Both the position numbers and the translations under genes were made by a program. DNA of 64,000 nt from contig NZ_CP067977.1 in assembly GCF_016656965.1 (NCBI RefSeq), positions 868,001 through 932,000 on the forward strand. The letters are read 5' to 3'. Under the pieces are notes generated by a model. That model was not told the DNA's origin. It worked only from the letters and a program-made list of their open reading frames with translations, and ran no database searches. This document shows positions 1 to 13,564 of the stretch, one piece after another (the first letter of the stretch is position 1; each line of letters opens with the position of its first letter). Source of the DNA: Brevundimonas vitisensis. GTDB lineage: Bacteria; Pseudomonadota; Alphaproteobacteria; Caulobacterales; Caulobacteraceae.

Positions 1-792
1 AATAAGCTTTCTGCCCGCGGGTACGACGAAAAGGGCGAATTCGTTGGTGAAAGAGAAGTTTTTCCCCTGCACGCCTCGCGGATTGTGAACGAGTACGACA
101 GGTATATATTCCTTAGCACCCTCCCCGAATATTTCCTTCAGAACTAAGTCAAGAGCTGAAACCTCGTTCTGGTCGATTGCGCATACCAAGACACCGTCTT
201 CTGCCAACAAATTTTTTGCCAGACGGAGAGGGGCATAGATGGATGACAGCCAATCGGAATGGAATCGTCCATTCGTCTGTAGGTTCGTTGAGAGCCGGCG
301 CCCTTCTTCATCAACGTCGCCCGATGATTCGAGAAACTCGGCGCGGCTGACCGAATAGTCGTTCTTGTATATTAGATTTCTGCCCGTGTTGTAGGGCGGG
401 TCGATGTATATCATCTTAACCTTGCCCAGATAGGTCTCCTGCAACAGCTTCAGGGCGTCCAAGTTGTCGCCCTCAATGAACAGGTTGCGGGTGATGTCGA
501 AGTCGACGCTGTCTTCGCGCATAGGACGCAGCGTCTTATCGATCGGCGAGTTGGCGGTCAGCAGCGCCTGGCGCTTTCCGGGCCAGTCTAACCGGTAGCG
601 CTCCTGAGGGCCGTCAACCAAATGATCGGACAGGGCTTGGCGCAGCAAGTCAAAATCAATGACGGGCTCACCGCGATCAGACGCAGACCCGGCCGGTCCT
701 TCAGTCGCGCATTCCGGGAACATTTCGGCCAGTCGAGCGATGTTCTGCCGCGTCAGGTCCACCGAAGTTGTAGTGAGTTTTTCGATCGGCAT
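1..792 (-). CDS. Type III-like site-specific DNA methyltransferase (Mod), 3' end outside window
   Basis: This is an open frame of 264 codons from an ATG at 792 that runs off the window edge without a stop, so only the N-terminal part is visible. It holds the motif IV signature DPPYNTG near residue 133, preceded by a GDNLDALKLL segment. That arrangement is typical of beta-class and type III Mod adenine methyltransferases, where the catalytic motif comes before the SAM-binding motif; the SAM motif would lie beyond the edge. It is the last visible gene of a minus-strand operon with a helicase, a DUF4391 protein and a PLD-like nuclease. It probably protects host DNA by adenine methylation, and a Res-type ATPase could follow outside the window. 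GC is visibly lower than in the helicase gene. The Mod-like identity is clear; the exact modification type is inferred. Confidence 0.85.
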   Translation of the reverse strand, partial: MPIEKLTTTSVDLTRQNIARLAEMFPECATEGPAGSASDRGEPVIDFDLLRQALSDHLVDGPQERYRLDWPGKRQALLTANSPIDKTLRPMREDSVDFDITRNLFIEGDNLDALKLLQETYLGKVKMIYIDPPYNTGRNLIYKNDYSVSRAEFLESSGDVDEEGRRLSTNLQTNGRFHSDWLSSIYAPLRLAKNLLAEDGVLVCAIDQNEVSALDLVLKEIFGEGAKEYIPVVLVHNPRGVQGKNFSFTNEFALFVVPAGRKLI

Positions 793-888
793 TTAAAGAT
801 CCAGAGCAGGCGCGTTGCGTCTCGCGGTTTTTGGCCACCATGGCCACTTCATGGCGCCCCGGAACGGACACCGCGACAGGGGGCGGAG

Positions 889-1854
889 CTAGAAGCCCGC
901 CTCCAGAGCGTAAAGTGAGAGATAGATCAACATTCGGGCGACGAGGCCACTGCCGCGCCCCCCTTCTACGCCATTCCGCACCGGCCTACCGCCCAAAGAG
1001 ATCGGAAGCTTGTTACGCCATTCCCCGCCGGCTCCTCCCGGGAAGCGGTGCCCTTGGGTACGCACGAAATCCGCAAATCGGAGCTTGGTGGCTCGGTTTG
1101 CGGACCAGAAAGTCATGGGTCGGTAGGCTTGGCTCGCCAAACTTGGTATCAAGTCGAGGTTCTGCCTGAGGAACTCTCTGATGCCGGGAAGCGCAGACTG
1201 AGTGTGCCCTCTCATGTTGTAGCCCGCGTCGGGATCAAATCGCGCCTCTATGTAGTCAGGATCAGCGCCGCCCTGTGTTGACAACCACAGTCGGAAGGCT
1301 GCTTCGCTATCCGCTGCTGGATTTCGTCTCAGCTGGGCTGGCTGCTCCGGCGTGGCAGTGTAGCTAACCCTCCCCTGAACAAGTAAATTTGTGAGGCGGC
1401 CCAAGTATCTTTGGCTAAGCCTTTCGGATCCTGATAGATAGTTATCGAACATTCTAGAAAGGGACGCGTACGTTGTCCGATCGGACGCAACGGCAAGAGA
1501 TTCAGGCCTGCTCCCGAAGCCAAATGATGTGAAGTTAGAGCTACCAAAGAACGCTTCATTGCCATTCATATACAGCTTTGTATGAACGTCTGGCATTCCG
1601 AATATCTGGACCGATCTACCAAACCGCGAACACAAGAGTAAGAAATCCCGTGGATCGTTGTCCAGCCTCAGAGGCACCGGATCAGACTGTCTTGGGAGCC
1701 GCGTTATGATACGGACACGCTGATGCTTCACCGGGTCTAGCTTCAGCAGTGGGCCTCTGCGCGCGAACGGGGCAATCAAGTCAATCCTATGACCATCTAA
1801 GACTCGGTCTAGTGTGTCTTGAGAAGGCCGATCAATCATATCATCGAATATCAT
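889..1854 (-). CDS. PLD-like nuclease-family protein with a single HKD motif
   Basis: The 321-residue protein has one phospholipase D signature: His91, Lys93 and, 14 residues on, Asn107 in a GSSNFTS segment. A single HKD motif fits the Nuc/DrmC-like nuclease branch, which builds its active site by dimerising. The C-terminal half has no motif I recognise. It lies 36 bases after the DUF4391 gene and 96 bases before the methyltransferase gene on the same strand, so co-transcription is likely. The coding sequence is AT-richer than the helicase gene (one 60-base stretch at 1381-1440 is about 43% GC), which suggests a separate origin. A role as the cleaving component of a restriction-like system is inferred; it could instead process RNA or lipid. 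Confidence 0.7.
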   Translation of the reverse strand: MIFDDMIDRPSQDTLDRVLDGHRIDLIAPFARRGPLLKLDPVKHQRVRIITRLPRQSDPVPLRLDNDPRDFLLLCSRFGRSVQIFGMPDVHTKLYMNGNEAFFGSSNFTSFGFGSRPESLAVASDRTTYASLSRMFDNYLSGSERLSQRYLGRLTNLLVQGRVSYTATPEQPAQLRRNPAADSEAAFRLWLSTQGGADPDYIEARFDPDAGYNMRGHTQSALPGIREFLRQNLDLIPSLASQAYRPMTFWSANRATKLRFADFVRTQGHRFPGGAGGEWRNKLPISLGGRPVRNGVEGGRGSGLVARMLIYLSLYALEAGF

Positions 1855-1890
1855 CGCGCAATCCGCTCGCTTTAAACTAGACTATTGATG

Positions 1891-2565
1891 CTAGATGATC
1901 AGCATCTTCAGTCGATCTTGCGCCGCCCGCAGCTCCCGGTTTTTCTCGATCTGGCGCGCGAAGTCCGCTTCGCGTCTCACCGCCGACCGCAACCGTTCCA
2001 CGGCTTTGGCCTGCGCCGCGACTTCGGACAAGCGTTCAGCATGCGCCCTGAGACCCTCATGATCGCGCGCCGGGTGGGGCCACAGGCTGCGCAAGAGCCC
2101 AGCATACAGGCCGTCTAACGTCACCGCAGGAGGCAGCGGAGACCGCGACGTTTCGATTGGAGCCCACCCGCCATGCCAATGCTCATGCGTCACAACGCGG
2201 CTCTGATCTGCCGCGCTGGTCCGCTTGAAAGCGGCGACGGCCTGCACCTCGGCGCCGTCCAGGGTGTTACGAACCAGTTCGAACCAAGTCTGTCGCGGCA
2301 GGGCCCTATCGATATGCGTCAGCACCCGCTCATCGAGACCGTCGGCCCTCAGCATCACCTGGATCACCTGAATCTCCGAGACGCCTCCCCCCGCCGGCAG
2401 ATTTACGCTCCGCTCGAACAGCTTCCAGGCCCAGTCGATGCGGTCGACTTGCGCTTCATAAAGGGCGCGGATGGTCTTTCCCCCGCCCGCGCGGCGAAAA
2501 AGCTGATCGCGAGGAATACGTCGATCTACCCGGGCGGCCTCGGGCCAAGCGTAGAGCGCGTTCAC
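1891..2565 (-). CDS. DUF4391 domain-containing protein
   Basis: This 224-residue protein resembles the DUF4391 family, which is found next to SNF2-type helicases and Mod methyltransferases in restriction-like loci. Features include a basic RRIPRDQLFRR segment near the N-terminus, a central DRIDWAWKL segment, and a charged helical C-terminus likely to form a coiled coil. No catalytic motif is evident. Its ATG overlaps the helicase stop by four bases (ATGA), so translation is coupled and the two products probably act together. The biochemical function is unknown; an adaptor role bridging helicase and methyltransferase is a guess. The family call rests on remembered sequence character and gene order. 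Confidence 0.65.
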   Translation of the reverse strand: MNALYAWPEAARVDRRIPRDQLFRRAGGGKTIRALYEAQVDRIDWAWKLFERSVNLPAGGGVSEIQVIQVMLRADGLDERVLTHIDRALPRQTWFELVRNTLDGAEVQAVAAFKRTSAADQSRVVTHEHWHGGWAPIETSRSPLPPAVTLDGLYAGLLRSLWPHPARDHEGLRAHAERLSEVAAQAKAVERLRSAVRREADFARQIEKNRELRAAQDRLKMLII

Positions 2566-5500
2566 ACCTCGGTCCGCCGGACGACGATGAAGGCGATGAG
2601 CTCAAAATCATCCAAGCCGGCCACCTCTCCGACCAACGCGGTGGTCGGGCCGGCGGAGAACAGGCTGTCCAGATCCTTCTGCTCTTTCACCTGGACCATC
2701 GAATTCACGGCGGAGTTCAGCAGATCCGAATATCGCTCCATCCGCCGCCCGTCGTCTGTCTCCTTGTTGAAAGGCTCGAAAAGAGCCGGGTCCGGCTCGG
2801 TCCGGCTGCGCGCCGCGCCGCGAAGCAAGTCGAGAACCTGCTTCGGCTCCGTATGACGGACCAGGGCGGACCCGTCTTCGCGAACGTAGACGAGGTAGAA
2901 GGGGTGGAGCCTATTGTGGCCACGAAGCTCGGTCGAAGCGTCGAGGTTGCGCAGGCAGAAGATGACACCAGCCGGAAGCTTGTCGCTGGCCGGGACAATG
3001 GCGTGCATGCCCAGCGGGGCGTCATCCAAACTGCCGTGCTCTCGTATATAGCTGACCAGGTCCATGCGGAAGTCGTTCAGCCCAAGATCCGTGATGCTGA
3101 CGCCCTGCCGGACGTCCTCAAGATCGACCACCTCAGTCTGAAGCTTCTTCAACTGGTCGCGGCGGTACTCGACATCGTTTTCTCGGGCCGTGAGGGGATT
3201 GTCGTCTCCGGTCGCGGTTAGGTCCGCGATGACCATACGGCCTTCGACCCGGTCCTTCAGGTTGATGTAGTCGTCCAGGCTGATGTTCGGCCAGTAGCTG
3301 ACCAGCTGGATTCGGTCGTTGGTGCTGCCGATGCGGTCGACCCGGCCGAAGCGCTGGATGATGCGAACCGGGTTCCAGTGAATGTCGTAGTTCACCACCA
3401 CATCGCAATCCTGAAGGTTCTGGCCTTCCGAGATGCAGTCGGTGGCGACCAGCACGTCGATGTCGCGGGCCTCGCCCTTGAGACGTGGGATCTGCGCCTT
3501 CTTTTTCGATACCGGCGAGAACAGAGTCAGGATGGCGCTGAAATCATACCCTTGGCCCAAGGTCGTCTTCGGAGCACCGCTACCGGTCACCAAGGCCAGC
3601 GCGCGCCCATCGCCAGCCTCCAGCACGGGCTTCAACTCGCGATAGAGATATTCGGCGGTGTCGGCGAAGGCGGTAAAGATCAGCAGCTTGCCATTGCCGG
3701 AATTGATCGGATCGCGCGCCTTGTCCTGCACGAAACGAATGAGGTGCTGCAGTTTCTCATCATCGCGCGGCGTGACCCGATGCATGACATCGAGCAGCGC
3801 CTCGATCACAGCCACATCCGCCTCAACGTCGCGCTTGTAACTGACCAGGTCCATGTCCTCGAAGGCGACGCGAACCTGACCACGCTCCAGCCCGGCCGAG
3901 GCGCCGTCATCATCATCGGGATCGACCTCGACCTCCGCTTCCAGCGCTAAGGCGTCCGCGCCCCCACGCTCGAAGCGTTCGATGGCCGCCAGCGTCTCCC
4001 GATGCACCCCGCCCAGCCGGTCCAGTGTGAGGCGGAAGGCTTCCACAGAGCTCTCCAGCCGCTTTAGCAGGTTCACTCGCATCAGCGACTTGATGGCCGT
4101 CTCCCGGTCTGCTTGCCGAAGGCGCGCACCGGCGGTCTCGGTGTCGTACATGTCGCCGTAGCGGGCCGCCCGACTGGGGTGGACGTAGGTGATGGGCGCG
4201 TAGACCGCCAAGGTCAGCCGCGTGAGCTCCTCATAGATGTCCTTAAAGCTGGGCACGTCGTCGCGTGCGGTCAGCGCCGGACTGAACGACCGGGGCGGCA
4301 GCCGCTGGGGAAAGCTTCCGATCTCGGCAGTGTCGTAGTGCGTGGTGATGTGCCGTCGCGACCGGGCGATGGTGACGCTGTCGAGAAGCTCGAAGAAAGC
4401 GAAGTCCAGCCGGTCCATGATGGCGGCGGGCGTGCGCTCGTCGACCGGTAGCTCCTGCCACTCGTTGAACGCGCGCTGAGCCTGACGGAAGATTTCCTCC
4501 ACGCTCTGCCCGCTGGACAACTTCTCCGACAGCGCCCGACTGTTGCCCTCGTAGGCGAGCGCCAGCTGGTTGCGAAGGTCATTGAAGCGATTGTTCACTG
4601 GCGTGGCCGACAGCATCAGCACCTTGGTGCGTACACCTTCGCGGATGACGCGGTTGAGCAGAGCTCGATACCGAGTGTCCGCCTCGCCCTGTTCCTGGGT
4701 GGCGTCGTCGTTCCGGAAGTTATGGGACTCGTCGATAACGACCAGGTCGTAATTGCCCCAATTCACCTGATCTAGAGGCATGCCGAAAGCTGACCCGCGC
4801 GTCCTGAGCAGATCGGTATGGGCCAGCACGTCGTAGCGGAAGCGATCCTCGACCAGGATGTTGGTCGTCAGGTTGCGGTTGTAGGTCAGCCAGTTGTCCG
4901 CCAACTTCTTGGGGCAGAGCACGAGTACCGATTTGTTCCTGAGCTCGTAATACTTGATCACCGCCAGCGCGGTGAACGTCTTTCCCAGGCCCACGCTGTC
5001 GGCGAGAATGCAGCCGTTGTAGGTCTCCAGCTTGTTAATCAGGCCTAGCGCGGCGTCCTGCTGGAACTTGAACAGCGTGTTCCAGACCTTGGTCTCCCGG
5101 AAGCCGGTCCGTTCGTTCGGTAGGAGGTCTTCGTTGATATCCTCCAGGAACGTCCTGAAGATCACCGACAGCATCAGATGGTAAATGCGCGACGGCGGAT
5201 TTTCGGCATAGACGCGCTCGAGCTGTCGACAAAGATCCTCGGTCACATCGACCAGGCGATCGCGGTCGTTCCAAAGCTGGTCGAAAAGGCCAACGTACCG
5301 ATCCAATGAAACGGGATCGTCGGTCTTGTTGATCATGGTGAGGTGACCGGGCTGATAGCCCAGGTCGGCTGCGGTCAGGCCTTGGAGTCCAGCGTAAACG
5401 GCGCCCGCACCTTCATCCCCCCGCGTGCACATGAACGAGGGAATGGGGTTGCCTGGGTTGGCTTTGAACGTCGCCCGTTGTCGTATCCACGCCGCGCAAT

Positions 5501-5810
5501 CCCGCGCCAGCGCCCGACTGGTCATCTGGTTGCGCAGGCGGATTTCGAAGGGCGTGCCCCCGAGGTCGCGCCTATGCATGACCGGTGGGATCAGGAATTC
5601 CCGATGCGACGCTCGGCCTCCGCCGTCTGTCACGAAGGACGGCCCGGTGAAGATAAAGTCTAACGCGGCGAGGTTGCGCAAAGCTGGTTCTAGCGCCGCA
5701 AAGGCGTGAATTGAAAAGCTGGCAGCGCTAACCTTCGCTTGCGTGCTCCTACGCAGCTCGTCCTTTAGGTCGTCGCCAAGGATTTCGGATACGTTGTCGA
5801 TGATCTTCAT
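2562..5810 (-). CDS. SNF2/RapA-type helicase of a restriction-like operon
   Basis: The 1082-residue superfamily 2 helicase has motif I LADSVGLGKT near residues 263-275, a DESH Walker B near 358, motif III LSATP, and a C-terminal helicase lobe with SEGQNLQ and QRFGRVDRIG near 800-825. The first 150 or so residues resemble the PLD-like N-terminal region of helicases in this operon type, but I see no intact HxK pair there. An acidic stretch EVDPDDDDG lies mid-protein. It heads the operon helicase, DUF4391, PLD, Mod. The start at 5810 (MKIIDN) was preferred to a GTG at 5843 because it matches the N-terminus usual for this family. It probably translocates on invading DNA to license cleavage. The specific system name is not settled by sequence alone. 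Confidence 0.85.
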   Translation of the reverse strand: MKIIDNVSEILGDDLKDELRRSTQAKVSAASFSIHAFAALEPALRNLAALDFIFTGPSFVTDGGGRASHREFLIPPVMHRRDLGGTPFEIRLRNQMTSRALARDCAAWIRQRATFKANPGNPIPSFMCTRGDEGAGAVYAGLQGLTAADLGYQPGHLTMINKTDDPVSLDRYVGLFDQLWNDRDRLVDVTEDLCRQLERVYAENPPSRIYHLMLSVIFRTFLEDINEDLLPNERTGFRETKVWNTLFKFQQDAALGLINKLETYNGCILADSVGLGKTFTALAVIKYYELRNKSVLVLCPKKLADNWLTYNRNLTTNILVEDRFRYDVLAHTDLLRTRGSAFGMPLDQVNWGNYDLVVIDESHNFRNDDATQEQGEADTRYRALLNRVIREGVRTKVLMLSATPVNNRFNDLRNQLALAYEGNSRALSEKLSSGQSVEEIFRQAQRAFNEWQELPVDERTPAAIMDRLDFAFFELLDSVTIARSRRHITTHYDTAEIGSFPQRLPPRSFSPALTARDDVPSFKDIYEELTRLTLAVYAPITYVHPSRAARYGDMYDTETAGARLRQADRETAIKSLMRVNLLKRLESSVEAFRLTLDRLGGVHRETLAAIERFERGGADALALEAEVEVDPDDDDGASAGLERGQVRVAFEDMDLVSYKRDVEADVAVIEALLDVMHRVTPRDDEKLQHLIRFVQDKARDPINSGNGKLLIFTAFADTAEYLYRELKPVLEAGDGRALALVTGSGAPKTTLGQGYDFSAILTLFSPVSKKKAQIPRLKGEARDIDVLVATDCISEGQNLQDCDVVVNYDIHWNPVRIIQRFGRVDRIGSTNDRIQLVSYWPNISLDDYINLKDRVEGRMVIADLTATGDDNPLTARENDVEYRRDQLKKLQTEVVDLEDVRQGVSITDLGLNDFRMDLVSYIREHGSLDDAPLGMHAIVPASDKLPAGVIFCLRNLDASTELRGHNRLHPFYLVYVREDGSALVRHTEPKQVLDLLRGAARSRTEPDPALFEPFNKETDDGRRMERYSDLLNSAVNSMVQVKEQKDLDSLFSAGPTTALVGEVAGLDDFELIAFIVVRRTEV

Positions 5811-6198
5811 ACACTGACTGAACCGCGTTCCACTCCGAACCACAACCGTTCATGCGCCGCCATAGTCGTGGACGAAGGCGTGGGCAGGTACCTGCCGCCG
5901 GACGGACGCAGCCCACCGAACTATTCAGGTACCGTGAGCTGTCACTAGGCCGTTGGCGGGCCGCGGGCCTCCTCGCAACCGTTCGAAGGCGCAAGTCCTG
6001 TGAATGCTCCGCCTCGATTGCGTTTCGAGCCTAGGTTGAGACAAACAGGTCAGACTGGCGTATGGCCAACCTCCTTTGAGGTCGCATCTCTATTCTAAAC
6101 CCTCGGCTGCCACTCTGCGCCATGAGCGGACGCTGGGCACCGGCTTGAGAGCGGACTTTCGAAGGCCCGTTTGTAGGGATGTCGCGATCGCCCGCTGC
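5811..6198. other. Intergenic region upstream of the helicase operon
   Basis: This stretch of 388 bases holds no gene I can support; short frames here lack ribosome binding sites and family resemblance. It must contain the promoter of the leftward helicase operon, but no convincing -35/-10 pair stood out. Its left part, near the end of the leftward hypothetical gene, carries a pair of AGCGGAC motifs listed separately. Confidence 0.5.
6125..6156 (+). repeat. Intergenic AGCGGAC pair, copy 1
   Basis: AGCGGAC occurs at 6125 and again at 6150, 25 bases apart, with CGGCTT between them. A second pair with nearly the same spacing and a CCGCTT in the same place occurs at 8316-8346, so the two look like copies of one short dispersed intergenic element. 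Confidence 0.4.
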
Positions 6199-7266
6199 CT
6201 AAGTTGGCCCCAGCTCGAGGACCTCAATGACGCCATCCGTGAAATGGTCTTGGTTAGGGCGTGTCCGCCAGAACGTCAGGAGGTCGACGTCGAGGCTCGC
6301 GTCGACCTTCCAAATGTTGTTGGTCGCCTCTTCTTCGTAGGGTGCCAGTATGCCGTCGGGCTGGGTCGCGTCGCCCACCACCGCATAGTCGAAGCGCTTG
6401 ATAACTGCTGGGTCAATCACGGCGACATTGTCGTGGAACTTGAGGCTCGCGGCAGGCCGCAAGCCGACGCGATAGATCGCCGGGTGGGCGCTTTCATAGA
6501 AGACGCCCCGCGCCTCCGGGGCGTGCCGCCAAACGTGCTGGCCCGCGACCGCCTCGCAGGGCACACGTAGCGCGAGCGTCGCCGTCCGATTGGCCGTCGT
6601 CTCGCGGTAAACCTTCAGCGGCACAACGCCTGCCGGCGGCGTATGGTCGTCCAACAGGAAGTAGATGACGCCGTCCGAGGCCATCGCGATCGCACGAAGG
6701 TCAAGATCGTTCGTGATCTTGGGGAGGCTCGTGAAATAGGCATAAGCGACGTTCTCGAGCTTGCGGTTTCCGCGGACGTTCCAGGCCGAACCCCACACTT
6801 CGCCGCTCGCCTTGATCGCCTCGAGCGCCACTTGAGTCGTGTGGTGGAACAGGTCGAGGTCGAAACCGCCGTCGGGTCGTTGATGCGCCCGCCCGGTGCT
6901 GCGATCGAGCAGGTCAGGCTGCCCGGCAACGCGGCATCGAAAGATCTGCGAGCGGTCGTCGAAGCGCGCCACGAACCGGTCGTCCGTGGTGGCCACGAGG
7001 ATTTCATCGCCGCCAGATGTCTCCACGGCAAGCTGCGCGTAGGCCGCGCCTTGGTAGAACGAGAGGACCGGCGGATCGAACATCTTGGGCTCGAACCATC
7101 GCCACTCGTCCCCGCGCGGCAGGAAGAGCGCGTCGGGGAGGAATACGCTGTAGCCTAGACCATGCGCGAGCTTGAACTTGATAAAACCCTCGAAACTCGG
7201 CGCGTCCCCGGCCGGAAAGGCCATCATCAGGTCGATTGCTCCGGTCTCTGCGCCAGCCTCAACCAT
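6199..7266 (-). CDS. Uncharacterised protein of a two-gene nuclease operon
   Basis: I do not recognise this 355-residue protein. It has no signal peptide or membrane segment. It appears to be mixed alpha/beta with many short hydrophobic beta-like strands and charged turns, for example VATTDDRFVARFDD near residues 90-105 and a GVIYFLLDDHTPP segment in the second half. No Walker, HKD, HEPN or TOPRIM motif is visible. It starts four bases after the stop of the upstream gene, which carries a PD-(D/E)XK signature, so the two are almost certainly one operon. Placement between a restriction-like operon and a Gabija-like pair suggests an antiviral or accessory role. A sensor, effector or immunity partner to the upstream nuclease are all possible. 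Confidence 0.6.
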   Translation of the reverse strand: MVEAGAETGAIDLMMAFPAGDAPSFEGFIKFKLAHGLGYSVFLPDALFLPRGDEWRWFEPKMFDPPVLSFYQGAAYAQLAVETSGGDEILVATTDDRFVARFDDRSQIFRCRVAGQPDLLDRSTGRAHQRPDGGFDLDLFHHTTQVALEAIKASGEVWGSAWNVRGNRKLENVAYAYFTSLPKITNDLDLRAIAMASDGVIYFLLDDHTPPAGVVPLKVYRETTANRTATLALRVPCEAVAGQHVWRHAPEARGVFYESAHPAIYRVGLRPAASLKFHDNVAVIDPAVIKRFDYAVVGDATQPDGILAPYEEEATNNIWKVDASLDVDLLTFWRTRPNQDHFTDGVIEVLELGPT

Positions 7267-7270
7267 CAGG

Positions 7271-8149
7271 TCATGACTTTGGGGCCAAGACGCCCTGCGT
7301 TACCAAGGCTGTCCATGCGAAGCGCGGATTTGCGCCCAGCGTCTCCATCTTTTCCTGGATGGCCGCTTGGGCGATCGCGGGCGTGACCTCCTTGCTGGTC
7401 GCGTAAATCAGCGAGATGAAGGTCGTGTAGTCGATCGAGCCGTAGTTTCCCTGATCGATGACGATTTGGTCGAGGACTGACGCTAGTTCCTTCAGGTCGC
7501 GCGCGAGCTTGAGTTCGACGCACGTCTTGAGACCTGGCACGCCGAGGTCAGGCTTGTAGCCCCGCAACAGCCCCCGGAACACGATTTTTCCGTCCGGAAG
7601 CGCGTCGGGGAACGCCGCACGACAAGTCGCATAGAGGATGTGCTTGACGTGGTCCTCTCGGCTTGGGAGCGCCAAGATTTCTTTGGCGACGAGATGCTCG
7701 ACGGTGGCACCGATCTGGCCGCACATCTGGTAGAGGAGCTTCTGTGCGCGGTTCGCGAAAATGTAGTCCTCAGGGTTCGCATGAAGGCCGTAGATACGAC
7801 TCAGGCGTTCAGCGAGACGGGTGAACTCCAAGGTCACCCGGAACTCCTCGCTCCAGGCCTCGACATGTTCGCCGCTCATGAGTTCAACAGTCTCGTCGAT
7901 GTTTTGGCCCGCACGTCGGATCGCAGCTTCGCTGTCGGCGCGCACGCCCTCTGCCACGCGGTCGAGGTTGACCAGCGCACGAAGCAGGTCCGTGACGTCG
8001 CACGCAAGAGGACCGACTTCCTGGCGCGCCCGGTCGACATCGGCGCCGAATTGCGCCCCGTCGTTGGCGATGAGGAGCTGCCAGTCCAGTTTTCCTAGCG
8101 TCGTGACGAGGTCCTTGTGGAGGCGCCGCGCTTCGTTTCGATCGAGCAT
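7271..8149 (-). CDS. Putative PD-(D/E)XK nuclease, first gene of a two-gene operon
   Basis: The 292-residue protein has a helical first half (about residues 1-170). The C-terminal region carries KPDLGVPGLKTCVELKLA near residues 205-222: an Asp, then ten residues, then Glu-Leu-Lys, which is the PD-(D/E)XK spacing. The following helix, with LDQIVIDQGNYG and a beta strand FISLIYAT, also fits restriction-endonuclease-like folds of the DpnII/MboI-like kind. The downstream gene follows after four bases. The ATG at 8149 faces a 419-base divergent region shared with another nuclease-like gene. Function as a DNA-cleaving defence effector is inferred from the motif and the island context; no exact family was recognised. 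Confidence 0.6.
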   Translation of the reverse strand: MLDRNEARRLHKDLVTTLGKLDWQLLIANDGAQFGADVDRARQEVGPLACDVTDLLRALVNLDRVAEGVRADSEAAIRRAGQNIDETVELMSGEHVEAWSEEFRVTLEFTRLAERLSRIYGLHANPEDYIFANRAQKLLYQMCGQIGATVEHLVAKEILALPSREDHVKHILYATCRAAFPDALPDGKIVFRGLLRGYKPDLGVPGLKTCVELKLARDLKELASVLDQIVIDQGNYGSIDYTTFISLIYATSKEVTPAIAQAAIQEKMETLGANPRFAWTALVTQGVLAPKS

Positions 8150-8568: not shown

Positions 8569-10095
8569 ATGCCTGATCCTGTCGAGAAATATCTCGAACG
8601 CTACGGCCCCGCGCTTTCGAGCGAGGTAGCTGCGCATTTGATCAAGGCTGGCTCGGAAGCTCCAGCGGCGCGCAAACGCGTTTCCCGCGCGGGACCCAAT
8701 GTCAAACGTCTCGCCGGCATCACCTTCCCCCACAAAGCTCGGTTCCTGTATTTGCAGCAGCAGTTCGGGTCGCCGTCGTACTGGGCGAACCTAACGACTG
8801 CGCTGATCTCGACACGTTCGGCCTACGGCTACGCGATCGCCGCGCTTCGCCAGCGTAAAGGTCTCGTGCCCACGGCTCATTTCCCCATCGTTTGCGGCAG
8901 CCCGCTCCGGCAGTCTCGGCATCTCTCGCCTGAAACGGTTTACCTTCGACTTAGCCAGGCGGGACTGCTGACGAAGGTCACCGTGGGCGGCCTAGGTGAA
9001 TGCATCGCCCTCATTCAGGGCGACGGTCATTACGAGGCGTGGGCGGAACATGTTCGAGCGCGCCTGTTGACGGAAAACATCCTGCTTCTGGCGGTGAAGG
9101 ACTGGCTGAAGAAGACCGGGATTGTGAGCTACGGCAAGGTGGCGATCCGGGGCGACGATCCCGCCCCGCAAGTCGGCACCTTCCTCTGGGACCTCTCCGC
9201 CCCATCCTACCTGGGTCCCATGGTCCGCACCGGGAAGGACGGGACACGCAAGAACGGTTTCGTGGCGTGCGATGTCCATCTCGGGGAGTCGATGACGCTC
9301 GCCGGCGTCGCGCCTTTCGTTCGGAAGTGCCAGACGCTGCGGACCCTGCGCAAGGTCGGGGCATGCCTCCAGATCTTCGTGGCGGACCGCTACGACGGCG
9401 CGGCTTTTCAGCTTCTCAAGGAGAACGGGATCATCCCGGCGACGCCGGCGTCGCTCTTCGGAGAAGACGTCGCTTCCGGCCTTCGCCAACTGACGTCCGT
9501 CCTGGAGAACGCCGCCCACTCCATCATCAACGCTGACCAGTTCGACGAGTTATTCAGCAAGCTTGGAAAGATCGAAGGGGCGTCCATCCAGCTCCGGGGG
9601 ACCCTGTTCGAATATCTCGCCGCGGAGATCGCCCGCAAGACGATCTCCACTGACATCAAGATGAATCGCACCTTCAAGCCGACGACCGGAACCCCCGCGA
9701 AGGCTGAGGCCGACGTGATTGCGATCACGAGCCATCAATCGATCACCGTGATCGAGTGCAAGGGATACAGTCCCCGGGCGACCATCCCCGACGATCTGTT
9801 CAAGCGGTGGCTTCATCACAACGTCCCCACGTGCTTCCGCGAGATCAAGGAACACCCCGATTGGCGAAACCTCGCCGTTAGGTTTGAATTCTGGTCGACC
9901 GCCGGCCTGAGTGAAGATGCGCTCAAGCTGTTTGCCAGGGCCAAGGCCCTGATCAACGCTGATCGCTATTCGATCGAAGTCCGTCTTGGCCCCGAACTCT
10001 ATGTGAACTGTCAGGACACCCACGATCCAAGTTTGATCGCAGCCTTCGAGAAGCATTTCCTGAAGGTCGAGAAGCCGCCTGGGGATTGGCATTAA
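8569..10095 (+). CDS. Putative restriction-endonuclease-like protein with C-terminal PD-(D/E)XK domain
   Basis: I do not recognise a named family for this 508-residue protein. The first 100 or so residues look like a winged-helix region (YLERYGPALSSEVAAHL). The C-terminal third has the layout of an Mrr-like nuclease: a conserved helix TLFEYLAAE near residue 347, Asp in EADVIAI near 382, and ECK near 396-398, giving E...D...ExK. No ATPase motif is visible, so it may act alone. It is transcribed rightward, divergent from the two-gene nuclease operon, and is followed 168 bases later by the Gabija-like pair. The start at 8569 has only a weak CGGGG-type ribosome binding site. Likely role: sequence- or modification-dependent DNA cleavage, by inference from motif and context. 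Confidence 0.6.
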   Translation: MPDPVEKYLERYGPALSSEVAAHLIKAGSEAPAARKRVSRAGPNVKRLAGITFPHKARFLYLQQQFGSPSYWANLTTALISTRSAYGYAIAALRQRKGLVPTAHFPIVCGSPLRQSRHLSPETVYLRLSQAGLLTKVTVGGLGECIALIQGDGHYEAWAEHVRARLLTENILLLAVKDWLKKTGIVSYGKVAIRGDDPAPQVGTFLWDLSAPSYLGPMVRTGKDGTRKNGFVACDVHLGESMTLAGVAPFVRKCQTLRTLRKVGACLQIFVADRYDGAAFQLLKENGIIPATPASLFGEDVASGLRQLTSVLENAAHSIINADQFDELFSKLGKIEGASIQLRGTLFEYLAAEIARKTISTDIKMNRTFKPTTGTPAKAEADVIAITSHQSITVIECKGYSPRATIPDDLFKRWLHHNVPTCFREIKEHPDWRNLAVRFEFWSTAGLSEDALKLFARAKALINADRYSIEVRLGPELYVNCQDTHDPSLIAAFEKHFLKVEKPPGDWH

Positions 10096-10227
10096 CCAAT
10101 AGCTTGGGTGTCTTGGACGAACAGGAGCTTCGGATACGATGACCTAAGGCTCATGGACTTGGCTACGCCTCCTGTCCGATTAAGCCGCCAGCCAAGAACA
10201 CCTGTAGAGAGGCCGCGCGCCAGGTGA

Positions 10228-10260
10228 GCGGAGGTTGTGATAGCCTCCGCCGCAGGAGGC
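10228..10260 (+). promoter_or_regulatory. Leader with two mutually exclusive hairpins controlling the ribosome binding site
   Basis: GCGGAGG (10228-10234) pairs perfectly with CCTCCGC (10244-10250). The overlapping GCCTCC (10243-10248) also pairs perfectly with GGAGGC (10255-10260), which contains the Shine-Dalgarno sequence of the ATG at 10264. The two hairpins share the same middle strand and cannot form together. The layout is that of an anti-anti-SD / anti-SD / SD switch. Whether the transcript includes 10228 is unknown. Confidence 0.45.
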
Positions 10261-10263
10261 GAA

Positions 10264-12042
10264 ATGAACCAAGTCGAACCGCATAAGCACGCGGTCATCC
10301 GGAAGCTGTCGATCCGCCAGTACCGTGGGCTGAGGGCGCTCGACTGGCGGCCTGATCCGACCCTTAACCTGCTCCTCGGCGGCGGCGATGTCGGTAAGAC
10401 GACGGTTCTCGACGCCGTCGGTCTGCTGCTGAGCGCATCCAACGCCGGGACAGTGTCAGAGACTGACTACTGGCGGCGCGACAACACCACGGAGTTCTCG
10501 ATCGAGGGCGTCGTCTCCTTGGCGAACAGCGTCGATCCCACCAGTCTCCCGACGCTGCTCATGCCGTGGGAGTGGAACGGCGAGGACGCCGCCCTTCCGG
10601 GCAATCCGCAAGACGGCAATGTCGCGGAAGCCACAAATCCTGTTTACCGGCTGCGCGTCCGAGGAACCCCCGATCTGGAGTTGGTGTGGGAGTTCGTCCA
10701 GCCTGACGACAGCACCATTCCCTTGTCGACCGCGTTTCGAAAGAAAATCGGACTGATCCGGCTGAGCGCTGACGACCGCAATGACCGTGATCTGCGCTTG
10801 GTGTTCGGTTCAGCGCTAGACCGGCTCTTGGCAGATCCGGCGATCAAAGCGCGCATAGCCAAACAGGTAGCCGAGCAGGACTTCGCCGCTCCCGTGGGGG
10901 ACGATGGTCTCAGGGCGCTACAGCGGCTGGACAAGCGCTTGATCGCTGCCTCTCTGCCGCACGGCGTCCAACTGGGCCTGACAGCAAGCCAGGGGCTTTC
11001 CATCGGTGCCTTAATCGGCTTGCTGGCTGATCGCGACGGCGTAGCTCTCCCTTTGGCGAGCTGGGGCGCGGGAACACGCCGGATGGCTGCGTTGGAAATT
11101 GCCTCGTCGATCCAAGCCGATAATCCCGTCACCGTCATCGACGAGATCGAGCGGGGGCTGGAGCCTTACCGGCTTCGCCAGCTCATGGCCGTGCTGCAAA
11201 GCACGTTCGGCCAATGCTTCGTCACGACCCATAGTCCCGTCGCGGTCCATTGCGCCCACTGGGGCAAGCTTTGGTATATGGACCCGGCCGGACGGATCGG
11301 CGAATTGGTGCAGGATAAGATCGCTGCCCAGCAGCAGCGCGATCCGGAGACCTTCTTGGCCAAGCTAGCGGTGATCGCAGAAGGCCCCACCGAAATCGGG
11401 TTCCTGCGGCGGTTGCTGGAGCTAGCCTTCAAGGGCGATCCCCTGAATGTTGGTGTCCGACTTTGCGACGGCCAAGGAAACCAGCAGACCCTTGGCCTGC
11501 TCGAGGCCCTAGGAGAGGCGCGCGTAAGTTTCGCGGCCATCGCCGATGATGAAGGCAAGCAGGCCGGTCGATGGACCACGCTCAAGCAGGCCATGGGCGA
11601 CCGCCTTTTGCGATGGGACGGTGCCTGCACCGAAAAGATAGTGATCGACCTCCTTCCGGAAGGTCGGCTGCCGGACCTTCTGAAGACGGCGGCTGGCGGC
11701 TGGGACGGCGAACGCCTTCGCACCTTGGCGACGCGGCTCGGTATTGAGGACAAGTCGCTGTCGGCCATCCGCGCGGCCTTGGCGGCCAGCGGCGGATCGC
11801 TACGACAGGTGATGATCGCGGCCGCCACCGGCGATGCGACGGAAGCACCCGAGGGCGCGGAGAAGGAGTGGAAGGCTCACGCCGGACGATGGTTCAAGTC
11901 GAGGCCGGGCGGCTACGATCTGGCCGGCTACGCACTGGCCGATGACGTCTGGCCGAAGATGGAGCCGGTCGTCCTGCCGCTCCTCAACGCCATCCTGACC
12001 GCAGTGGCGATGCCGGCGATTGAAAGCCTCGACCGTGTCTGA
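10264..12042 (+). CDS. Gabija-like OLD-family ATPase/TOPRIM endonuclease (GajA-like)
   Basis: The 592-residue protein has an N-terminal ABC-type ATPase with Walker A GGGDVGKT near residues 39-46. A late Walker B TVIDEIERGLEP lies near 288-300, then a switch histidine in TTHSP near 322. A C-terminal TOPRIM domain begins at VIAEGPTE near 371 and has IADDEGK near 424. This is the OLD nuclease architecture, and the length is close to GajA of the Gabija system. The ATG at 10264 follows an AGGAGG by six bases and is preferred to the upstream GTG at 10237. The next gene, a UvrD-like helicase, overlaps its 3' end, as in gajAB. Likely role: nucleotide-sensing DNA endonuclease that degrades phage DNA. 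The Walker A is unusual, so it may be a divergent Gabija subtype. Confidence 0.8.
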   Translation: MNQVEPHKHAVIRKLSIRQYRGLRALDWRPDPTLNLLLGGGDVGKTTVLDAVGLLLSASNAGTVSETDYWRRDNTTEFSIEGVVSLANSVDPTSLPTLLMPWEWNGEDAALPGNPQDGNVAEATNPVYRLRVRGTPDLELVWEFVQPDDSTIPLSTAFRKKIGLIRLSADDRNDRDLRLVFGSALDRLLADPAIKARIAKQVAEQDFAAPVGDDGLRALQRLDKRLIAASLPHGVQLGLTASQGLSIGALIGLLADRDGVALPLASWGAGTRRMAALEIASSIQADNPVTVIDEIERGLEPYRLRQLMAVLQSTFGQCFVTTHSPVAVHCAHWGKLWYMDPAGRIGELVQDKIAAQQQRDPETFLAKLAVIAEGPTEIGFLRRLLELAFKGDPLNVGVRLCDGQGNQQTLGLLEALGEARVSFAAIADDEGKQAGRWTTLKQAMGDRLLRWDGACTEKIVIDLLPEGRLPDLLKTAAGGWDGERLRTLATRLGIEDKSLSAIRAALAASGGSLRQVMIAAATGDATEAPEGAEKEWKAHAGRWFKSRPGGYDLAGYALADDVWPKMEPVVLPLLNAILTAVAMPAIESLDRV

Positions 12043-13564
12043 CGTCTCCGTCGCGGCATTGTTGAGATCGGACGAGCCGTTGGTCGTCATCGAGGCGCCG
12101 GCGGGATGCGGAAAGACCTTCCAGGGCGCAGCCTATGCGCGGGACATGTCGCAGACGCTGGGCCAGGGCCGGCTGCTGATCCTCACGCACACACATGGCG
12201 CCTGTGGTGTTTTCGCAGAGCGCACGCGCGGCCTGTCCGCGCGCGTGGACATACGGACACTAGACTCCCTCATCGGCCAGGTTGCGACCCTCTATCGCCG
12301 CGCGCTCGGCCTGCCGGACAACCTCTCGACGTGGGCCTACCAGGATGACGGCGCTGGCTTTGGGATCATGGCGGAGAAGGTCGCGGGCTATTTGGAACGG
12401 CATCCGATCGTTCGCCAGGCGCTGGCACAGCGCTATCCGGTCATAGTCTGCGACGAGCACCAAGACGCCAGCGAAGCGCAGCATCGCACCATCATGGCGC
12501 TTCGTCTGGGCGGCGCGCGGTTGCGGATTTTCGGCGATCCGCTCCAGGCAATCTTCGCCAGCGACAAGTCCGACAGGGCTATGGCCGCCGCGCTCGCACA
12601 GTGGGAGGCGCTGAAGGAGAGCGCGGCGTTCGACGAACTGGCTCACCCCCACCGTTGGCAAGCGGGAACTCCCGCCCTCGGTCAGTGGGTTCTCGCCGCC
12701 CGAACTGAACTCAAGGCGGGCCGATCCGTACCGCTGAACGGGCCGGCCGTGCAGGGGCTGCACATCGTGCGCGCCGATAACGTTTCGCCCGCGCGCACGG
12801 CCTACCAGGTAAGTCGCGCGCAACGCACGCCGATCGACGCGGCGGTGCAAGGTCCGGTCATGGTCTTGGCCGCCAGCAACGAGCGCGTCGGGGCGTTAAG
12901 CGCGTTCTGGGGACGACGCATCCCTGTCTGGGAGGGCCATACGCGATCGGCCCTAGCGGACTTGGTACAGACCGCCAAGGCCCACAGAGGTGACGCCGAA
13001 CAGCTCGCGCAAGGCGTCGTTCGGTTCGCCTCCTCCATCGCAGGCAGCGGCTTTTCGGCCGGGAGCCATGGAGACCGGCTGGTCAAAGAGGTGCGCGACG
13101 GTTGCGCTAAGTCGGCGCGCGGTAAGCCGGGCAACATCCAGCGGCTCGCCCACCATGTTTTAGCGTCGCCCGACCATCGAGGCGTCGCCCTCGCCCTGAA
13201 AGAGTTAAGCGATCTCGTGGACGCCAAGGCCGATGGCTTCGGCGACATTAAGGTCGTCCACCGCAGCGAGCTTCGCGATGCGATCCGCCTGAAAGCCTTC
13301 GCCTGTCCCGACGAAGGCTATGCGGAGATCGCCCGGCGGCGGTCACAGGCGATGCCGGTGCCACCCGCCAGAACGCTGAGCACGATCCACAAAGCTAAGG
13401 GTCTGGAGTGCGACAACGCCGTGCTGATCGCCGGCGACCGCGACCAGTTCGGCGGAACCCGGTATGCCCGCTGCAAGCTCTATGTCGCGCTCAGCCGGGC
13501 CAGGCACTCGCTAACCATCGTCGTATCGCAGAACAATCCCAGCTCGCTGTTCAACGTCGCCTGA
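12020..13564 (+). CDS. Gabija-like UvrD-type helicase (GajB-like)
   Basis: The 514-residue superfamily 1 helicase has Walker A APAGCGKTF near residues 25-33, motif II CDEHQD near 148, a GDPLQAIF motif III, and C-terminal HKAKGLECD and YVALSRAR motifs (near 455 and 490). It is much shorter than housekeeping UvrD/PcrA, as is GajB (about 500 residues). The TTG at 12020 gives a 23-base overlap with the upstream ATPase gene; a GTG at 12035 with an eight-base overlap is an equally good start. Coupling to an OLD-TOPRIM gene makes a Gabija-type role (sensing DNA ends and activating the nuclease partner) the best reading. It could also belong to a related but unnamed OLD/UvrD pair. Confidence 0.8.
   Translation: MKASTVSDVSVAALLRSDEPLVVIEAPAGCGKTFQGAAYARDMSQTLGQGRLLILTHTHGACGVFAERTRGLSARVDIRTLDSLIGQVATLYRRALGLPDNLSTWAYQDDGAGFGIMAEKVAGYLERHPIVRQALAQRYPVIVCDEHQDASEAQHRTIMALRLGGARLRIFGDPLQAIFASDKSDRAMAAALAQWEALKESAAFDELAHPHRWQAGTPALGQWVLAARTELKAGRSVPLNGPAVQGLHIVRADNVSPARTAYQVSRAQRTPIDAAVQGPVMVLAASNERVGALSAFWGRRIPVWEGHTRSALADLVQTAKAHRGDAEQLAQGVVRFASSIAGSGFSAGSHGDRLVKEVRDGCAKSARGKPGNIQRLAHHVLASPDHRGVALALKELSDLVDAKADGFGDIKVVHRSELRDAIRLKAFACPDEGYAEIARRRSQAMPVPPARTLSTIHKAKGLECDNAVLIAGDRDQFGGTRYARCKLYVALSRARHSLTIVVSQNNPSSLFNVA

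Follow-up and report, generated by a model that had tools for sequence, protein, structure and literature searches.

Is a pair of closely spaced genes in a defense island of Brevundimonas vitisensis a two-gene antiviral system? We examined this question in a stretch of 64,000 nucleotides from this bacterium (contig NZ_CP067977.1, positions 868,001 to 932,000), which is called the window below and whose numbering is used unless another locus is named. The upstream gene (7271..8149, minus strand) encodes a protein of 292 amino acids (aa) and the downstream gene (6199..7266, minus strand) a protein of 355 aa. The TGA stop codon of the former and the ATG codon of the latter are separated by 4 nucleotides (nt; CCTG, 7267..7270, minus strand). 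A preliminary description of this DNA had placed the two open reading frames (ORFs) correctly, four bases apart, and had singled them out as the best candidate in the window for an undescribed antiviral system. As described below, the pair turned out not to be a conserved unit. The 292-aa protein is, judged by its homology, a nuclease of a known type, and the 355-aa protein may be a divergent ADP-ribosyltransferase (ART) of the H-Y-E type.

Neighbors of the gene for the 355-aa protein

Relatives of the 355-aa protein were collected by a single-sequence search, which gave 33, and by a search with a family profile, which gave 64, 40 of them new, so that 73 were obtained in all; in each search, only the 8000 candidates with the most words in common with the query were scored. 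They occur in Pseudomonadota, Actinomycetota and Bacteroidota, and the family members are mostly 330-380 aa long. The family is scattered but rare. It was found in 2 of 398, 2 of 398, 1 of 385, 1 of 369, 1 of 217 and 2 of 218 genomes, where the genome at the center of the search contributes one match each time and was in one search the sole match. Two plasmid records carried a relative, and the same two were found when two other family members served as queries. Four scans of viral contigs gave one locus with a relative, and no relative was found in phages at E≤1e-5.

The surroundings of the gene were compared at 17 distinct loci (the window, L002-L011, L012/L024, L013/L025, L014, L015, L016 and L023/L026). 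L009 and L010 break off a short way upstream of the gene, which leaves 15 loci with readable upstream sequence. The gap at L007 contains a run of N, the gene at L011 is broken, the ORF calls in loci of high G+C content are mechanical, and only chosen ORFs were scanned.

A gene for a nuclease-domain protein was located directly upstream, on the same strand, in 5 of the 15 loci. It encodes a DpnII/MboI-type restriction endonuclease (REase) in the window, PIN_4 in L003, GmrSD in L005, HEPN_LA2681 in L007 and a DpnII-MboI REase in L012; the L003 and L007 proteins matched no PADLOC model at E≤1e-5. An REase of this type was thus directly upstream in two loci, the window and L012/L024. At the other 10 loci we found P63C (L014), DUF6367 (L015), a phage integrase (L004), a transposase-like gene (L008), a 400-aa ORF without a match (L013), and opposite-strand or unrecognised ORFs (L002, L006, L016 and L023). 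L011 is also counted among these 10; its gene, from a Hyphomicrobium metagenome-assembled genome, is broken into two open pieces (L011:9858-10864). In the Caulobacter locus L002, the protein of which is 64-66% identical to the 355-aa protein, an opposite-strand ORF and a methyltransferase are present upstream and no REase.

When the ORFs of at least 80 aa in the 17 loci were compared with each other (BLASTP, E≤1e-6), the gene for the 355-aa protein was the only one common to all loci. The remaining matches joined only two or three loci: GmrSD in L005 and L011, Dcm/Vsr-like genes in L016 and L025, recombinase genes in L014 and L025, an unrelated gene pair in L005 and L008, and a few more. The link between the window REase and the L024 REase was missed at this threshold, although a direct BLASTP comparison detected it (E 4e-6). 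Among plasmids, the window REase (E≤0.01) found relatives in seven records, and the L012 REase (E≤1e-5) did so in six. These 13 records, some of which are near-duplicates, include neither of the 2 that carry the gene for the 355-aa protein. In 5 of the 13 the named neighbors, taken from incomplete gene tables, included restriction-modification (RM) genes, an AAA ATPase, Piwi, NERD, NADAR, transposases and housekeeping genes.

Because the upstream neighbor keeps changing and the plasmid records do not overlap, the pair is not a conserved unit, and we rejected conserved pairing of the REase with the 355-aa protein. The homologue survey therefore does not bear out the two-gene antiviral system of the preliminary description. 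The pairing is probably mostly local, and the 355-aa protein is probably the new item here, because its relatives sit in the defense clusters of other bacteria with different neighbors. The two REase adjacencies in 15 loci may reflect an occasional partnership of the two proteins. A toxin with a dedicated antitoxin was also considered, as in the toxin-antitoxin ART systems DarTG and CmdTAC, but among ORFs of at least 80 aa, compared at E≤1e-6, no neighbor was common to most loci; smaller or more diverged antitoxin genes beside the gene are possible.

A RM, prokaryotic Argonaute (pAgo), GmrSD, PIN, HEPN or HipA gene was found no farther than about 6 kb from the gene, upstream or downstream, in 11 of the 15 loci, counted over the ORFs scanned and without a random-neighbor control. 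The loci without such a gene were L004, L006, L014 and L023. L016 was counted among the 11 because two of its genes are similar by BLAST to the L025 methyltransferase and to a gene read as Vsr; Dcm-like methyltransferase and Vsr-like genes are found near the gene for the 355-aa protein both at L016:13851-16418, on a Rhizobium plasmid, and at L025:11870-13991, in a genome of the window's order. In the ORF list of L012, the REase gene (Aga_Helical-REase, 5.1e-159) overlaps the end of the gene for a class II pAgo (7.3e-224), and 78 nt separate the REase gene from that of the 355-aa relative, which follows it. The three genes stand in a row at L024:6914-13619 (minus strand), and a GmrSD_N/HNH gene is located just beyond on the other strand. 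Related recombinase-like genes, 44% identical and presumably serine recombinases, occur near the gene at L014:2655-4016, on a viral contig, and at L025:2296-4032. Their kinship suggests that the gene is carried on phage-like islands.

Structure and conserved residues of the 355-aa protein

The AlphaFold2 model of the 355-aa protein had a mean predicted local distance difference test (pLDDT) value of 93.7 and a predicted template modeling (pTM) score of 0.91. In its secondary structure, residues 24-129 (6880..7197, minus strand) form an N-terminal beta-rich domain, which may be a sensor or regulatory part. The proposed ART core comprises residues 135-278 (6433..6864, minus strand) and contains H141-x-T143, S160, W162, N163, G166, Y177, T179, R227 and E258. 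The elements of the model in this region are a strand at 135-143 (with HHT), a helix at 145-154, a strand at 174-179 (YAYFT) and a strand at 256-259 that carries E258. We compared the residues in alignment A7, which consists of 16 intact distinct loci. H141, T143, S160, W162, N163, G166, N172 and Y177 were invariant in all 16 rows, and so were T179, M195, R227, H244, H248, E258, R266 and others. The second H of HHT was variable; three loci have I or V at this position.

In H-Y-E ARTs, an H-x-T segment, a helix, a strand, a Y-x-T segment and a Glu on a later strand follow each other in this order. We therefore propose, on the aligned sequences, that H141, Y177 and E258 are the catalytic columns of an H-Y-E ART, a triad described in the available parts of PMC3482391 and PMC11618068. 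The preliminary description had found no motif to name in this protein. This holds for library families, since the protein gave no match at E≤1 in Pfam (2025), NCBIfam (2026), PADLOC (2023) or PHROGs; it does not hold for the H-x-T ... Y ... E pattern, which is that of the H-Y-E ARTs.

When 85 sequences of the family were compared with Pfam, only weak matches were obtained. PF15633 (Tox-ART-HYD1) was matched at E≤1 by 1 of 32 and by 8 of 53 family members, with a best E of 0.023, and the match in P0050 starts exactly at the H-x-T segment. A PDB sequence search with the single 355-aa protein gave no match, and profiles A1 and A9 matched only the coat protein of MS2 (E 0.037 and 0.25), which we regard as chance. 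In the Foldseek search, BFVD returned a 1488-residue uncharacterised phage protein (probability 1.00, E 0.032, root-mean-square deviation 7.8) and, at rank 29, a PARP-domain protein (probability 0.14), neither of which is interpretable. The ART core folded alone reached a pLDDT of 50, and this model was not used for searches. RNA 2'-phosphotransferase (PF01885) was considered as a yardstick for ARTs and dropped, as it was not found in the bacterium's own genome.

The 292-aa protein

The preliminary description had called the first gene a likely PD-(D/E)XK nuclease from an Asp-X10-Glu-X-Lys signature in the C-terminal half of its product. The signature is present (D201-x10-E212-x-K214), and its spacing is identical in the L012 REase and in P0036. 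However, we rejected the idea that the motif alone would identify a nuclease, because it occurs at least once in 5.8% of 5000 composition shuffles; it is homology that bears the claim. PF18742 (DpnII-MboI REase) matched the protein with E 4.7e-6 and 26.7 bits, that is, 0.3 short of the curated Pfam cut-off of 27. The protein was 28% identical over 93 aa (BLASTP, E 4e-6) to the L012 REase, which is a clear PF18742 protein of another genome. A single-sequence query (E≤1e-3) gave 3 relatives with 91, 89 and 53% identity, all of them PF18742 in precomputed annotation. The assignment is made because of the PF18742 match, the PF18742 relatives and the BLASTP match together. Thus the 292-aa protein is, by homology, a DpnII/MboI-type PD-(D/E)XK nuclease, with a C-terminal nuclease domain at about residues 165-255 and the catalytic motif D201, E212 and K214. 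The N-terminal part was without a library match, and a PDB sequence search with the protein gave none.

The PADLOC model Aga_Helical-REase also matched (E 6.4e-8), at residues 165-264 and with the C-terminal end of the model only. No pAgo was present among the 7 neighboring island proteins scanned around the pair. The protein was therefore rejected as the helical REase of a class II pAgo system, having neither a full-length match nor a pAgo among those neighbors; the L012/L024 REase has a full-length match as well as an adjacent pAgo (pAgo_II, 7.3e-224).

The island around the pair

The preliminary description had placed the pair in a defense island, and our scans agree with it. One flank contains genes for a type III methyltransferase, a PLD protein, a DUF4391 protein and a SNF2-type helicase (2562..5843, minus strand, GTG start as listed; PF00271 and PF00176; PADLOC C3a139, 1.9e-117); the helicase is a neighboring defense gene outside the pair. 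On the other flank, in divergent orientation, a gene for a 508-aa protein is followed by GajA-like OLD nuclease and GajB-like helicase genes (10237..13564, plus strand; PADLOC GajA 5.3e-65, GajB 4.8e-52), which are Gabija-like.

The G+C content of the window is 61.5% up to 13.8 kb and 66.2% at 14-64 kb. A tRNA-Lys gene lies at L032:6943-7018, about 11 kb ahead of the window start, and 4.6 kb past it is an ORF (L032:11628-13757) which, from its N-terminus, we take to be a probable large serine recombinase. These two are likely the left end of a mobile island. Taken together with the G+C drop and the defense genes, they make the locus resemble a mobile defense island.

Two further observations concern the flanks. 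The type III methyltransferase, PLD, DUF4391 (a domain of unknown function, matched at 8.6e-36) and SNF2 helicase genes form a single minus-strand cluster with a 1018-aa ORF (window 1-5843 and L032:13770-18463), and by eye this ORF resembles a type III restriction subunit. The 508-aa protein (region 8569-13564, plus strand), which directly precedes the GajA/GajB-like genes, matched NERD (E 0.0094) and CARF_PDDEXK (E 0.0013) weakly, and these genes may be a variant of Gabija that has an additional nuclease.

Discussion

We think that the 355-aa protein may be a divergent H-Y-E-type ART, a solitary defense cargo gene in mobile islands, and we give this reading about an even chance. The N-terminal beta domain would keep the protein quiet or sense infection. 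Once triggered, the C-terminal domain would transfer ADP-ribose from NAD+ to a protein or nucleic acid of the infected cell, or would do no more than consume NAD+, and phage growth would be stopped. The window REase would be an independent neighbor, possibly on the same transcript, cutting DNA on its own account. We infer the trigger, target, shared transcript and anti-phage function, and we infer likewise the ART fold and catalysis; what speaks for a defense function is the location of the gene. A wider proposal seems to us improbable, namely that the protein is the founder of a new family of anti-phage ARTs that act as single genes, have a built-in sensor, and are moved between defense islands behind unrelated nuclease systems (REase, pAgo-REase, PIN, HEPN and GmrSD), which they would serve in common as a second-strike or regulatory module.

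It is rather doubtful, but must be weighed, that the protein is not an ART at all and has a new beta-rich fold, for example that of a nucleic-acid or ligand-binding sensor, in which the H, Y and E columns are structural. Three observations count against the ART assignment and fit such a fold. No profile of a known ART family was matched over its cut-off, and one PF15633 score was 14.8 bits against a cut-off of 25; Foldseek gave nothing at E≤0.001 in PDB or BFVD; and the model is beta-rich throughout. On the other hand, a large number of polar residues (H, S, N, Y, T, R and E) are invariant, which is enzyme-like, the order of motifs and secondary structure agrees with that generally known for H-Y-E ARTs, and ARTs are indicated by the profile lead as well as by the best structural lead.

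Two other explanations give the neighboring nuclease a part in the function. If the two proteins formed a two-component system, the 355-aa protein would sense or license and the REase would cut the invading DNA, or both would strike in series. The common strand and the 4-nt spacing suggest this. Window-type REase relatives exist, but they number 3, against 33 relatives of the 355-aa protein in the same kind of single-sequence query. The diverged DpnII/MboI-type REase 78 nt upstream of the relative in L012/L024 also seems favorable, but it belongs to the pAgo operon. Considering further the different upstream genes in Caulobacter and the absence of plasmid overlap, we regard the two-component system as unlikely. 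Alternatively, the 355-aa protein might be a modifying antitoxin or regulator that ADP-ribosylates the upstream nuclease (REase, PIN, HEPN or GmrSD) and so restrains or resets it. MNT enzymes restrain HEPN toxins by modifying them, and a nuclease gene is directly upstream in the 5 loci described above, twice an REase. In addition, the available part of PMC3710099, a HEPN survey of 2013, places a pEK499_p136-like HEPN family in operons with RM genes and ART-like enzymes. In contrast, the other 10 loci have something else or nothing recognisable upstream, and the nucleases belong to unrelated families that one enzyme could hardly recognise. Moreover, the upstream gene is a different one for each of the close relatives in L004, L005 and L012/L024, which are 65-76% identical. 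A modifying antitoxin is thus very unlikely in our opinion.

If the 355-aa protein is an ART, it can be compared with known systems. With Tox-ART-HYD1 (PF15633), the H-Y-E ARTs of polymorphic toxin systems, it shares the H-x-T segment at the start and, farther downstream, a Tyr and an acidic residue. However, the 355-aa proteins score below the cut-off and have the extra N-terminal beta domain, and the neighbors scanned included no recognisable gene for secretion or immunity. CmdTAC is, in the available part of PMC11618068, an mRNA ADP-ribosyltransferase anti-phage system in which CmdT depends on the antitoxin CmdA and the SecB-like chaperone CmdC. The likeness is in the proposed mode only, that is, a HY-[E,D,Q]-type ART used intracellularly against phage; unlike CmdTAC, the family has no neighbor of at least 80 aa that recurs in most loci. 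The arrangement proposed for L007, in which an ART-like gene adjoins a gene for a HEPN RNase, recalls the operons of PMC3710099, but the L007 HEPN belongs to the LA2681 family, which the available part of that survey gives with TPR proteins only.

The window REase shares the C-terminal D-x10-E-x-K nuclease domain with the DpnII/MboI-type REases (PF18742), including those of class II pAgo systems. It differs from the latter in its length of 292 aa and in the confined Aga_Helical-REase match without a scanned pAgo neighbor. As for Gabija, the adjoining plus-strand GajA- and GajB-like genes are a separate, divergently placed locus and are not part of the two-gene unit.

The nuclease half of the locus is ordinary, being a member of a known family. 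Anti-phage effectors with ART activity are already known, and ART-like genes beside HEPN and RM genes were noted in 2013 (PMC3710099, available part). In the literature searched, no description was recognised as the 355-aa family or as an association of pAgo with an ART. If the proposed reading is true, a scattered and rare protein family would gain a chemistry and a testable active site, and the defense repertoire would gain an intracellular ART without a recognised antitoxin. The hypothetical genes behind several nuclease genes, including that of a pAgo operon, would then be explained.
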